In this document: positions 7,451-60,372 of the stretch, in pieces
Numbering within the stretch: position 1 is the first letter of the stretch
Layout: each line of letters opens with the position of its first letter
From: Albula goreensis
Taxonomy: Eukaryota > Chordata > Actinopteri > Albuliformes > Albulidae
Assembly: GCA_022829145.1 (NCBI GenBank)
Contig: CM040746.1
Coordinates: forward strand, 6,973,184-7,037,183
Length of the DNA stretch: 64,000 bases
Reading direction: 5' to 3'
The notes under the pieces: model-generated
Database searches by the model: none
Told to the model about the DNA's origin: nothing
What the model saw: the letters and a program-made list of their open reading frames with translations, nothing else
Made by a program: the position numbers and the translations under genes

Positions 7451-52853
<45,403 letters not shown>

Positions 52854-52990
52854 GCTGCTTCCGTGTTTCGCAGGGGGAAAGCTGAGCTGTCAGAGGTCAG
52901 CGCGCTGATGGTAGGATATGAGGTAGCGCTACACCTCGTCCCAGCATGCATTGTACCAAACATATTTGGAATATTCCCCCACCGGGGATG
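52854..52990 (-). promoter_or_regulatory. agps: agps promoter and 5'UTR region
   Basis: The GC-richer sequence just upstream of the agps ATG is the expected promoter. It holds TCCCAGCATGCATTGT at 52939-52954, which resembles the ZNF143/THAP11 site found in many housekeeping promoters. No TATA box is evident at a sensible spacing. The start of transcription cannot be placed. Confidence 0.5.
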
Positions 52991-55871
52991 TTAAAGGCGT
53001 CTTACCTGGAAAGGATTTTTGTGTCAGGTTTCAAACAATGAAACGTTAATGTGTGTCTTATCAGGGTAGCTTTTATTTTCATAACTGTGTTTCTAAAGAC
53101 TGTTGTTGACATAAATGTTAGTTGTTGGCCCCCATCATGATCTCAAGGACAGTATGTGTCAATAGACTGTGGGATGACCTCAAATATACCCCTGAATTGC
53201 AGCATTTGCTCCAGTTATACACTTTGCTTAAGTGTGTCACAACATATTATGCTTTCTTTTACATACTTAGCATCGATAAAATTACAAAACAATTGCTGTT
53301 ATACTTGGAATTTGCACAATTGTTCCTACTTAGGTATATAATTTAATTATTTGTTTATATGTGAATTGCATCAGCTAAATGACTGGAATGGAATGGAACA
53401 ACGTGGTATGAGAACGAAATGTTAACGTTTGTTGTGAATACTTACGAGTCCTGAATAATGCAGAACTATGAGTATGCATAAAACAACATATAACAACAGC
53501 AACAAAATCCGCCTGGTTCTTCAGGCCTCATGTGTATAACAGAGAGCGGCAGGGACCACAGTCATAGCTGATGTAGTATTAGTCCTACCTGGTTAGGGCA
53601 TCAGTTTCCTGTGAGATTATCATGCATACTTTTTGTAGCAGTAGTAGAAGAGGTAAAACTGCTATAACTTACATTATAGTCTTCATTACCACTGCCTCCT
53701 ATAGTGTACAGAGTCCAAAGTTATGCAGTCTACTTCATATTTCAGAGACCACAGTCATTCATGACCTACCAATGCACAGGCGTTTATATGCTAATTATTT
53801 ATGGTATGTGCAAAGATTTCACTTAGAAGGAAAGTGTTTGGCACTTGGTTTCCTTGGTGAAGGATAAATCAGTGCTTCTTGTGCAACACGGTTGCTGTCA
53901 GGCACTGGTATTCGCTGTGTTTTTTAAGTCTTCAATACATTAATGGTAAATGCTTTTAGTTGGAAAAACATTTAAGTCCAAGTCAGATTTAAGTGATTTG
54001 CTTTCCTCAGTGATTTACTGATTAAGGAATGAAATCAACTCTGATATAGCACTGTTAATCAAAAATGTAACACTGGATGAAGTAACGCGCCAGTTTAAGG
54101 AAGATATTTAATTTTAGCTTATCGAATGTAATTAGCTAATGCTTTTTAGTTCATCTGTTTAATTGCATCTGTATCATGTTATCTTCACTCTGATGTGGTG
54201 TGACTCTGCCTAACTTCCAGGGTTGTATTTTTATAATAACCAATGACAGTTATAACTTCTTATGAACAACAACCTCTCATGGGCTTGTTCATCGAGTCCT
54301 GGGGGTGGTTTTACAAAATTCTAAACAACTCTATAAAAAAAATCCACTCATAGAAATATGCTGGCACCTGACACATTTCAGGAGCATGAGCAATGCTCGA
54401 TCAGTAGCTAACACTAGTAAGTACAGTACAAAACTGCATTTACCATGTATTGTTATTATATCATCATTGTTATCATACATCAGAGTTATCTAACATTAGT
54501 TTGATGTCATAAACTATACAAATATATAGTTTATGACTTCAATATCACTCTATATTTATAGACAGGTAATAAAAACCTGCTCAAAGAAACATATTGGTTT
54601 TCTTAAGACTTACAATGTAGGAATTCTGTTTTACAACTGTCAAGACCTAGTAGCAATCTGATCTATTCTATCTATACCCCTGATGCTACACATTTTAAAT
54701 ATATATTTATTTACTTATTTAACTTGTTTGTGAAAATGTGTATCCTCATTCAAGAAAGTACTGCATCTCTCTTCAACAATTTTATTAGATGTGGTCCACA
54801 TCCTTTAAGAAAAAGTATTAAAGTCCCCATTTAACATAGCCAGAAAACCTTTTTTTTTTTTAAAAACTTCATAACATTTACTGCTTTAAATAATCATGGT
54901 TTCATTTAATTATAATTTTAATATAATTGTGGTATCAGTCATTATTAATAGCATTAGCATTTAGTCATCAGAAATAGCATTAATGCTCTTTCACAAGAGC
55001 CAACATTTTAATTTCACTAACTTTCAATAATTTTCGATCTCTGCATTTCTCATTTATTCTCAGGTTTAGAATACCGAATTGGCTTTCTTCCAAATTTCCA
55101 TCTGCCCACACACATGCAGTGTGACAAGTTGTGTCATTTCTATTTATATGATTGTTTCAAAGGAAACAATCTGATTGCTCCAATCAGTGACTCATGCACA
55201 CATTTATTATGGGTGCCATTTTGATACTTAGACACGGCTGTGAGGGCTTCAACGTATGATACCTTGGCTGTATAATTAAGGCAGCTGATGGTGTCTGTGG
55301 GAAAACTGACCTATATAAATTCTTCAGTAAACAGAGGCAGGCAGACCTGAAAATTCCAAGTCGAGACCAACTGTTCCGGTTTACCTCTGCCCCACCTCTC
55401 CTGTGTCATGTGACAAAGGCCTAGGCGAGGCCTGTACAGCCGTGCACAGGTTTCCATGTGTTGCTCTCCTTGCAGCTGGGAAATGCTGTAACCCGCTACC
55501 GCTATACATATGAGCACTCCCTGTTCCCACACAACGCTGTACCGGTGTTTTATTCACGTACAATAGACTTTTTCCACACAGAATGACGGCTGAAATAAAA
55601 GCTTTGAAACAGCTCTGGTCTGGATATATACATTTAACCCTTAGTCATTTTCCGTCAGCCAGGATGTTATAAGATTTTTGGTATCGCAGACAATTGAATA
55701 AATCATATTAACCGATACAGAAATTCTGTCTTTATTTGTTTATTTTAATGCAGTCTTTCCTTTCCTCTGGCAGGAGAACTGGATGAAAAATCATGGTAGC
55801 ACTGGCTCGTTTTGGCATTGTCACCCTTTCCTCCAGAGGTGCTGGAAGTTTCCATGTGCCTGGAGCATTAA
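52991..55871. other. Intergenic, agps to mir-148
   Basis: A/T-rich sequence with no recognisable exon on either strand. A short perfect inverted repeat with 13-bp arms lies at 54506-54537, and a tail-like SINE scrap is near 53370-53400. Confidence 0.5.
54506..54537. repeat. Perfect 13-bp inverted repeat (hairpin)
   Basis: GTCATAAACTATA and its reverse complement are separated by six bases. It is too short for a microRNA precursor and of unknown meaning. Confidence 0.7.
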
Positions 55872-55947
55872 CTCCCAAAGCAAAGTTCTGTAATGCACTG
55901 ACTGCAAACAATTAGAGTCTAAGTGTATTACAGAACTTTACTTGGAA
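55872..55947 (-). ncRNA. mir148: miR-148/152-family microRNA precursor
   Basis: On the minus strand a hairpin forms with a 5p arm at 55918-55939 (AAAGTTCTGTAATACACTTA...) and a 3p arm at 55880-55901 (UCAGUGCAUUACAGAACUUU...). The loop is about 16 nt, and the stem extends past the arms (CCAAG paired with CTTTGG). The 3p arm carries the family seed CAGUGCA and, from memory, equals zebrafish miR-148 apart perhaps from the last base. The 5p arm resembles human miR-148b-5p. It lies about 3 kb upstream of agps and 4.4 kb from nfe2l2 on the opposite strand to nfe2l2. It is not inside a COPZ intron, unlike miR-148b and miR-152. The family represses, among others, DNMT genes in mammals. Confidence 0.93.
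55880..55901 (-). ncRNA. Predicted mature miR-148-3p
   Basis: This 22-nt segment starts UCAGUGCAUUACAGAACUUU on the minus strand. The start is set by the strongly conserved 5' end of the miR-148/152 family, which fixes the seed at CAGUGCA. Confidence 0.9.
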
Positions 55948-57540
55948 AGCCACGGCAGGGCCATGTGTTCTTCCGCGGTGACCCTTCTTGTTGTCCTACC
56001 AGCAGTTGCCTTGAAGAGAAAACACAATACGAGTAAGTGAGCTGTGAACACTATAGACGGTCGAAGAACACTGTTCACGCAACCTCCTGAGCAAACCATA
56101 CTCATTTAAGGGGCATTTCAGCTGGGGGATAGCGGGTGCCTTCGAAGTTAACTGTCATCTCTCAGCCCAAAATCCAGGCCTTGTGTAAAATTCCATTTGC
56201 CAGACCACTTAGATTAACTTTACAGGATATTAAATAAATGTGGAAAATTCATATAAACCACCAAATATCACTGCAATGATAAAATATTAACCCTATGTAT
56301 TATTGGCATGTACCAACAACTCCGGGGCCTGCAACAAAATGGCAGTTTTTGACTGAAAGCAGTTAGGATGCAGACAGCTAGAAAGTTGTATTTAAAACAA
56401 ACAAATAAACAAAAGCCTGTGTGAACACAAAGAAAAGGAAAAAGTAAAGGAATATAGACAAAGAGACATGGGACAAATTCCTTCTCTCAGTGTAAATACT
56501 AACAGTTCAACCTTGCCTGTCTTCAAGGTTGTTTAGTTAACAATTGGGGGGAGTCGATATGTAGAACAGCTGACGTGTCTAAACTTTCCAAATTTGGAGT
56601 CGTATATTCATTCATGCAGTCACAAAACTACAATCTGTAATAGTCATTTCAGCAAAATCAGAGTAAACGAAATAGGTTTCATTAGTTACGCAACTTTTCT
56701 GACTCAGTGTGTCAAACTAAGCACATAGTTAACATTTGCATTAAGTCTACATTTCAAAGGGAGCGATTAGCAAAGCATTCACAAAAAACAAACTAAACAA
56801 AATAAGACGAGGTACATGAATACGGCTTTGATGCAGTATTACAAAATACATTTTCCACATGTCGTTGAATATAAGTTGAGCTTTCGATAAAGTTGCCCCA
56901 ATTGCAGTTTCCATATGGTGGACAATCATTCAATGCTGAATGCTCGAGTTAAAAATATATTCACTCTGCATGGGTGAATAATCAAATGTTGAAGTGTTAA
57001 CCAACAGACACTTAAAATTAATAAATAAGCTTACTGTACATACCTGGTTGAAGTGAGACAGCAGTTAAAGGGGCCAGCAGCAGTCCAGCACGAGAGGAAA
57101 AAGACCATAAAAAATGCAACAAAAATGCTTTCTGAAGACACTTCAGTTTTAACTACCGAAACACACGGCGCGCACTTTATCTGTTAATTCTGCGGTCATC
57201 GGCCTTCTTTGGACGTTCCATGAAATGTTCGTGAGGTGCTTTTTACACCACTGAACCTTCGCTTCTCCTAGCTCTCTGCACAGCACTCTGCAGCTGGAAG
57301 AATGTCGACGTGGAGCTGCCAATCGTGAACGCGTACCCGTGGACGCGCTTTGCAAAAAAGTCCAGTTTTAGTGTAATTTCAGATAGTGGGCTACACTGAA
57401 GGTATATGTAGAGGTGGAGTGCCGTTCTTAACAGGTAGGTGTCGGAGGGCGTGGTAAAAAGGTTCGCCTCGTTTGGGAGACGCATTAGCAAACGCCGCCT
57501 AATTGTAGCACCGTTCAAGCTTTTCCCCACCACTCAGGTG

Positions 57541-59990
57541 TCAGAATGTATAGGGTAGTGGGATATGGCAACGAGGTCTTTATAGTTCGTGTAGATTTTA
57601 AGGTTTAGCATATATTGCTGTTTTTACAAGTAAGATTGGGAAGTGTATCATTTATTTTTGGGCATACAAACATGTTTTAATTAAATCATTAAAAATCAAC
57701 AATGATCATAAATGTACAATCTGTTATAATAATAATGATTGCAAGACACAATCATATTTAATTTATTAATGATCCCTAATGCTCTAGAAAATTTGTAAAT
57801 AAATGGTCACTTCATAAATGAAACCATGAACGGCCCCATTTATCAAATGTATATTGCTACAGTTATTACTAGAATCTGATCTGTTTCACAGAAGAAAAAA
57901 ATGGACAAATGTGTTTCCAAATTAGCCTCGGGATTGTCAATGAATCAAAGCTCATTGCACCTTGCAATACACTTGTTATCATAAGTGACACTGCTACAAC
58001 AACTGTTTAGAGATCACTTAAGCTGCTAATGTAATGAAGTAATAACTAATCTTCAAATTTTTAAGTGTATAACGTATCTGTGTTTCAAGAGTTTAAACAA
58101 GCCATTTCAAAAATGTACATCACAGCGTATTCATAATGATTTTCTTAAAATTGTAAATGTATCCTCACAAAAAATGGGGCATGAAATCACCTCAAATATA
58201 TGTTGAAGCTTGGTCTCAATTTTTGAAGATTTTAGAGTAAAGTGAATCACTAGATAGTGATTGTAAATATTCTAATGTCAGCCACTAAGTGTCGCTAGGT
58301 AACAAGCAGACGCACACTTCCCTGTTTGAGTGCCAGATTAACTTGTTGTTCATACCTGTATTCATGTGAATATGCTTCCTGTGCCTTGATGAGCACAGAG
58401 CTTGGAATAAAGGACCGTGCACTATCTAAAAGAATCATTCACTGGGGAGGAGTACATATTTATGCATTAGGCCATTTATAAATGACTGGGAACTGCCCCT
58501 GCTTGCTTGATCCTTATCTATGTGGTGAAGTGTTGCTGTAACCCCCCTCATTAGGGTGATAAATGGTGAAGGTCTCCTACAGTCATAAAAGTGCTCATCT
58601 CTGCACAGCAGGTGGACAGAAAGGAGCACCATTTTGCTAACATGGTCAGTGGGAGTGAACCAGGCCAGTGAGCTGCTGACTTCTTGTGAGATTCTTGCTC
58701 TCTACTTTCTTCAAGTGAAATTCAACCAGGTCTCTGGTGACTGTGGTTAGAAGTTAATGACCATGATCCTCCTTACATCCTTCTGTTGCATGGTATACGT
58801 CTGAGGGATGGACACAGACAAATGACCTCGTGATCCTGGCTGATCTTTGCCACCATCAGTGTCTGGGAGTGAGAGGGATTTTTGCCTGGAACTGCAGCTG
58901 TTACAGTGCCATGGATTTGTTTACGAACGGTTCTTTCTTCTGACAAACTCAAATCACCGTTACCAAAGTGACCATAAAGCTATGACATCGTCATATGTTG
59001 GTCACTGTTGTCCCCTGTGGGAAGCCTATGGCCCTGTCCTGGGTTTCTCACAACTTGAGTCACCTGAACTAGAATCTCTAATGGACTAACAGCAAACACA
59101 CACTCTTGTTATAACCCAACCCACACTACTTCATCCCACCCTAACCTCCTCCAATCCATGCTACGGCTCACCCTTTTTGAGTGCCGTCAGTCTGCAGCTA
59201 ACCACAAAAGGCCCTCCTATTCCCAACTCTGGACTTCAAGGTGCTATTTCTGAGAGGGTGGTTGTCTGGTTTCCTTTCCCTCATTTGCTTAAAGGTTTCT
59301 TGCTTAGGGAGTATCTGGGTTTCCCCTGCAAGATCAATATGAAGACGTTTTACACTGTTGACAAAGATTCTCCTAGCTAACAGTACCTCTGTAACCTCCT
59401 CACAACATTGCACCAGAGAAATCTATCGACTGCTTTCCTGTCTGATTTAAACAGAGACCTATAATGTTGTAGAAGTATGCATGCAGCTTAGCAACACTGT
59501 TAATCTTGGATGCCAGTGGTTCCTTACCCTGAAATATCATTTAGCTTCTCTAATCACGTCTGAAAGACCTAGAATGGGACTGATGACTTTATCCACTTTC
59601 GTGTTGTGTTTGCTTTCTGTATTTATGTATAATAAGGAGATGCTGATAATGAAGAATTATAGGCTAATTTTCCTAATTACATAACGACTTTTAAATTAGT
59701 GAGAAAACCAGTGGGGGATAATGGCAACGGCTGTGCCTGCCTGACATCGTAAAGTCACACCAGAGAGGAAAATAATCATAATTTTGCTGTTATGCTCATA
59801 TTACGAGTTTTATTTTAAATGTTTTAGTGCAATATCTGAAGCTAAAATAAAAAAATAAGAAATTCCTTATGAAATGTATACTCTGCTTTTAAAAACTTCT
59901 GCTTCTTAAAACGTTTTAACAGTCATGCAATCAAACGCAAAATGCTCGAGATGTTGTCGAGCACACAACCCAAAGTTTAGAGAAAATGTG
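57541..59990. other. Intergenic, mir-148 host to nfe2l2
   Basis: No exon with support was found. Short open frames near 58850-59410 on both strands have no recognisable family or splice pattern. The base mix is A/T-rich until the GC rise before nfe2l2. Confidence 0.5.
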
Positions 59991-60330: not shown

Positions 60331-60372
60331 ATGATGGAGATCGAGTTGCCAAAAATGCACCAGAGTCAACAG
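60331..60372 (+). CDS. nfe2l2: nfe2l2 (Nrf2) coding exon 1, partial gene
   Basis: Reads MMEIELPKMHQSQQ followed by the donor CAG|GTAAAT. Human Nrf2 starts MMDLELPPPGLPSQQ and its first coding exon also ends right after QQ; zebrafish Nfe2l2a starts MMEIEM. Nrf2 is the CNC-bZIP factor that turns on antioxidant and detoxification genes and is held by Keap1 through the Neh2 DLG and ETGE motifs, which are coded by exon 2, outside this window. The first of two ATGs is used. The head-to-head placement with agps supports the call. Confidence 0.88.

Follow-up and report, generated by a model that had tools for sequence, protein, structure and literature searches.

The question raised by this locus is whether a microRNA hairpin lying upstream of nfe2l2 is the fourth ohnolog of the miR-148/152 family. 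Human retains the HOXA-, HOXB- and HOXC-side members. MIR148A lies by NFE2L3 on the HOXA side, MIR152 lies in an intron of COPZ2 on the HOXB side, and MIR148B lies in an intron of COPZ1 on the HOXC side, head-to-head with an NFE2 gene; we know of no human family member beside NFE2L2. We analysed a 64-kb stretch of contig C6 (the window) together with the genome it comes from (932 Mb, 208 contigs). The hairpin very probably descends from the early vertebrate doublings as the family's ohnolog on the HoxD side, linked to nfe2l2 and kept on C6 and on a second contig, C5; it is probably intronic, transcribed from its own minus-strand promoter, and processed into a repressing 3p arm.

The hairpin is located at 55874–55946 on the minus strand. 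It matches RF00248 over positions 1–74 of 74, scoring 79.7 bits (E 9.1e-16) where the gathering score is 53, and is the single match at gathering score within the 64-kb window. The 101-nt minus-strand region folds at −40.5 kcal/mol and its shuffles at −20.7 on average (z −6.7), with 0 of 200 shuffles folding equally well. The first-pass annotation had described a minus-strand hairpin with a full 3p arm and proposed folding it; the end-to-end match, the two intact arms and the fold all agree with that description. The predicted mature 3p arm spans 55880–55901 (minus), reads UCAGUGCAUUACAGAACUUUGC and carries the family seed CAGUGCA, its ends being set by analogy with known members. The predicted 5p arm, AAGUUCUGUAAUACACUUAGAC, spans 55917–55938 (minus) and possibly ends one base earlier. 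By the usual placement rules for microRNA-processing motifs, there are a basal UG 14 nt ahead of the 5p start (55951–55952, minus) and a CNNC 15 nt past the 3p end (55862–55865, minus). C6 and C5 both carry the UG, and the copies on C3, C19, and C22 do not have it at the same place, while the CNNC of the C6 copy is missing from the C5 and C3 copies. Judged from its letters, the C6 locus is a genuine-looking miR-148/152-family microRNA gene.

The hairpin sits between two head-to-head genes, agps on the minus strand and nfe2l2 on the plus strand. It is on the agps strand and directed away from nfe2l2, whose start codon is 4,385 bp away. Inside the window, nfe2l2 is represented by its first coding exon only (60331–60372, plus), which reads MMEIELPKMHQSQQ and is followed by a GT donor; a search of the 64 kb for the bZIP and the ETGE motif found neither. 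Past the window there is an exon with DIDLG and DEETGE, followed by an NRF2-like CNC-bZIP that matches NRF2 best in the PDB. The adjacency to nfe2l2 claimed from the window is thus confirmed by the first exon and by what follows it. The other neighbour, identified as agps by tblastn with human AGPS as query, has its start codon at 52853 on the minus strand and extends down to 7454. Its coding region, from first to last coding exon (7454–52853), is covered by 20 collinear pieces among the 22 tblastn rows over 22 bits, and one of the exons in the window was matched to solved AGPS structures. The remaining two rows, at 27849 (minus) and 10543 (plus), were set aside as chance. Exon 1 is weak in tblastn (E 2.7) and was accepted because C5 conserves it (E 9.8e-13). 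Two minisatellites with 27- and 25-base units lie within the agps gene, at 16198–16493 and 19724–20366 of the window.

Across the genome, RF00248 gave eight rows. Five loci are over the cut-off, one each on C6, C22, C5, C19, and C3, and the other three rows are weaker, reverse-strand matches at the C6, C22, and C5 hairpins. Of 130,291 first-look candidates this search scored 64, which leaves room for a further, weak copy. PF03131 gave 31 rows, with all 57 of its candidates scored. An NFE2-type (CNC-bZIP) gene lies 9.4–22.2 kb from every one of the five hairpins, on the opposite strand and divergent, with the PF03131 matches at C6 7047369, C5 23645065, C3 49329391, C19 24176514, and C22 10590538. 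No hairpin was found near a sixth NFE2-type gene at C12 5261115. Naming by PDB is limited, as the NRF2 chain 7x5e ranks first for each of the four bZIPs searched (C6, C5, C22, and C12). Over a shared 70-residue bZIP stretch, NRF2 scores above NF-E2 for C6 and C5, and NF-E2 above NRF2 for C22 and C12. Among 140 bZIP residues compared, 100 are identical between C6 and C5, 120 between C19 and C22, and 73–90 in the other eight pairs; the comparison is without C3, whose exon match is short. Using also neighbours, Hox type, and known family sequences, we take the genes on C19 and C22 to be nfe2l1, that on C3 to be nfe2l3, and that on C12 to be nfe2.

The Hox clusters place these loci on their paralogous chromosomes. 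PF04617 locates hox9 genes at eight places on eight chromosomes, and seven of the eight are 0.13–0.35 Mb from an NFE2-type or copz gene on the same chromosome; on hox9-bearing C20, the genome searches found neither. The hox9 homeodomain exons pair as C6/C5, C12/C14, C20/C3, and C22/C19, which by comparison with human sequences we take to be HoxD, HoxC, HoxA, and HoxB, respectively. The paired Hox chromosomes suggest that the fish is a teleost and that C6 and C5 are teleost-duplication partners. With eight hox9 loci in four pairs, all eight post-duplication Hox clusters seem to be kept in this fish, as in few teleosts, e.g. eels. By Hox side, mir-148 loci were found on two of two D, two of two B, one of two A, and none of two C chromosomes. 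The copy on C3 is of the mir-148a type, and those on C19 and C22 are of the mir-152 type. Five loci, each paired with its own NFE2-type gene and spread over chromosomes of the HoxA, HoxB, and HoxD types, support the first-pass proposal of a fourth ohnolog, the C6 locus supplying the HoxD member of the four-fold microRNA set. The survivors differ, being A, B, and D here versus A, B, and C in human; with no human D-side member known, the nfe2l2-linked copy may have been lost in mammals.

We inspected the copz genes as well, which were found on three chromosomes, C14, C19, and C22. The C14 gene is copz1-like by its sequence, with pieces 72–94% identical to human COPZ1 and one 56% piece that enters an intron. 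The genes on C19 and C22 are less like human COPZ1 and presumably copz2-like; the hairpins there lie about 240 and 350 bp, respectively, ahead of a copz exon starting EPSLYTVKAVFILDNDGNR. The HoxC side appears split, as nfe2 was found only on C12 (5261115) and copz1 only on C14 (32691964). No mir-148 was found near either gene in stretches of 40 kb at E up to 5, nor in stretches of 20 kb at E up to 0.5. UnaL2 LINE 3′ ends are located near the C14 copz1, in stretches L026:2244-2297 and L027:3138-3191.

The order agps–hairpin–nfe2l2 and all orientations are the same on C5 as on C6. On C5, agps exon 1 starts at 23632343 (minus), the RF00248 hairpin lies at 23635573–23635646 (minus), and the nfe2l2-type first exon, MIDLPKCQQSLQ followed by GT, lies at 23640029 (plus); hairpin and start codon are 4,383 bp apart. 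The C5 gene continues with a DLG/ETGE exon and a bZIP that scores NRF2 above NF-E2. An nfe2l2 copy in the same arrangement on both teleost duplicates bears out the HoxD-side placement made from the window. Within this one genome, the C6 and C5 hairpin blocks are 95.8% identical over 95 columns, compared with 71–76% for nfe2l2 coding sequence, which indicates that the hairpin has been under selection after the two copies arose by duplication. The identity is 74.8% in agps exon 1 and 77–78% in two short non-coding blocks. The C5 hairpin folds at −30.3 kcal/mol versus −42.5 for C6, and the two are possibly processed differently. The C5 copy has a stem mismatch and one additional loop base, besides having no CNNC.

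The five copies differ by type at positions 9–10 of the 3p arm, which are UU in C6 and C5, CU in C3, and UA in C19 and C22; in human they are CU in 148a, UC in 148b, and UG in 152. A tree of eight precursors over 66 columns, three of them human, joins C6 with C5 (83/87) and C19 and C22 with human 152 (89/94), while all five inner branches stay below the tool's starred support level. In this tree, of the kind that the first-pass annotation had suggested, the copies from the HoxD side group together, at no more than moderate support. The C6 copy has the same seed as MIR148B and a 5p arm close to the AAGUUCUGUUAUACAC of MIR148B; the 3p arms differ at positions 9–10, with UC in MIR148B and UU in C6. 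The C3 copy, like MIR148A, shares with the C6 copy the seed, a non-COPZ place, and divergence from an NFE2-type gene, but it has CU at 3p positions 9–10, a shorter 5p arm, and 55.7 bits against 79.7. MIR152 and the C19 and C22 copies share with it the seed and the divergent place by an NFE2-type gene; C19 and C22 are unlike C6 in lying 240–350 bp ahead of a copz exon and in their UA. MIR148B is on the human HOXC side, whereas no hairpin was found on this fish's HoxC side, and it is described as hosted by COPZ1 (PMC12688097), whereas no COPZ was found at C6. The same source describes MIR152–COPZ2 and MIR148B–COPZ1 as an ohno-miRNA pair in human (PMC12688097).

These comparisons bear on whether transposition or segmental duplication, in an ancestor of teleosts, could have brought a copy of another mir-148 locus next to nfe2l2. 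The weakness of a tree built from short precursors and the restriction of the comparison to this one genome leave room for such an event. However, such a copy would have had to reach the only NFE2 paralog still lacking a hairpin, divergent like the other loci and before the teleost duplication, and the C6 3p arm is unlike the other types at positions 9–10. We consider this origin very improbable. A recent transposition, which the first-pass annotation had named as a possible refutation of its proposal, is made less likely by two HoxD copies that are both in place and form their own, moderately supported group. Synteny in this single genome points to a pre-teleost origin. It is hardly credible that the hairpin is a decaying relic that still folds and yields no microRNA: the C5 partner does lack one stem pair and the CNNC, but the hairpin identity between C6 and C5 is well over that of the coding neighbours, both arms are intact, and the C5 3p arm equals the printed salmon and grass carp miR-148 letter for letter.

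For a true ohnolog, the host transcript is to be considered. A block at 57034–57560 (minus), 1.1 kb upstream of the hairpin, is conserved between C6 and C5 (73.5%, 535 columns, E 4.9e-79). Its CpG observed/expected ratio is 0.88, compared with 0.27–0.52 in neighbouring intergenic sequence, 0.89 at the agps start, and 0.73 at the nfe2l2 start. A splice donor between 57044 and 57043 (minus), CCAG/GTATGTACAG, is identical on C6 and C5, and with looser scoring the alignment spans from the block through the hairpin to 55818 (62%, 1806 columns). The block is probably the promoter and first exon of a host transcript with the hairpin in the next intron, a placement read by parallel with the COPZ-hosted family members. 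The upstream exon could also be an alternative first exon of agps, which would make agps the host and put the hairpin in its 5′ intron. The hairpin is on the agps strand, 3 kb upstream of the agps start codon, and the conserved donor is directed towards agps; against this, a separate conserved, CpG-rich region (52665–52975) marks the start of agps itself. We hold agps to be an unlikely host, yet a live rival. The comparison of C6 with C5 revealed no conserved block from the hairpin down to the start of agps that would be a downstream exon.

Under the reading we prefer, the genome doublings of early vertebrates left this ohnolog, which is retained on C6 and its teleost-duplication partner C5 and would be transcribed from a minus-strand promoter of its own, located near 57.1–57.5 kb. 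The hairpin would lie in the first intron of the host transcript, from which Drosha and Dicer would excise it, and the seed-bearing 3p arm would then repress the usual miR-148/152 targets. As the seed is unchanged, no new targeting is expected. No miR-148 seed sites were found in the first 3 kb beyond the nfe2l2 stop; the corresponding 3 kb beyond agps contain two TGCACTG 7-mers, which may be chance occurrences. No COPZ gene was found around the C6 hairpin, and the microRNA is retained though the usual host gene is absent. Searching the C6 and C5 stretches for a COPZ remnant by tblastn with human COPZ1 gave nothing better than E 2.6; the rows near the hairpins were rejected as chance level (25–39% identity, E 2.6 or worse). 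Comparison of the upstream block with the C3, C19, C22, C14, and C12 stretches gave only 11–12-base matches (E 0.5 or worse). A tentative conjecture, which we think somewhat doubtful, is that the host transcript is what remains of a fourth COPZ gene, its coding exons gone and its promoter, first exon, donor, and microRNA kept. The fish would have lost the C member and human the D member, so that fish miR-148 and mammalian miR-148b would be ohnologs, not orthologs. If true, a vesicle-coat gene became a non-coding microRNA host.

The locus may already be listed in MirGeneDB or FishmiRNA. Among the literature matches listed, no title or abstract start places mir-148 beside nfe2l2 or agps. In the elephant shark, up to four paralogs per microRNA have been assigned by synteny (Peterson 2021, PMC8789304), in a paper whose text does not contain the string mir-148. 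The C6-specific 3p ending UUUGC is absent among the fish miR-148 literature matches listed, which include a sardine paper (PMC7320087). The 22-nt C5 3p arm is identical to ssa-miR-148a-3p, printed from small-RNA data of Atlantic salmon vesicles (PMC7686242), and to grass carp miR-148, given as a primer (PMC4698583), and the C6 3p arm is the same over its first 21 nt. By these sequences, what is now called "miR-148" in fish may be the nfe2l2-linked branch; if this is true in other fish, the fish names miR-148, 148a, and 148b need correction before findings from fish are transferred to mammalian miR-148a or miR-148b.
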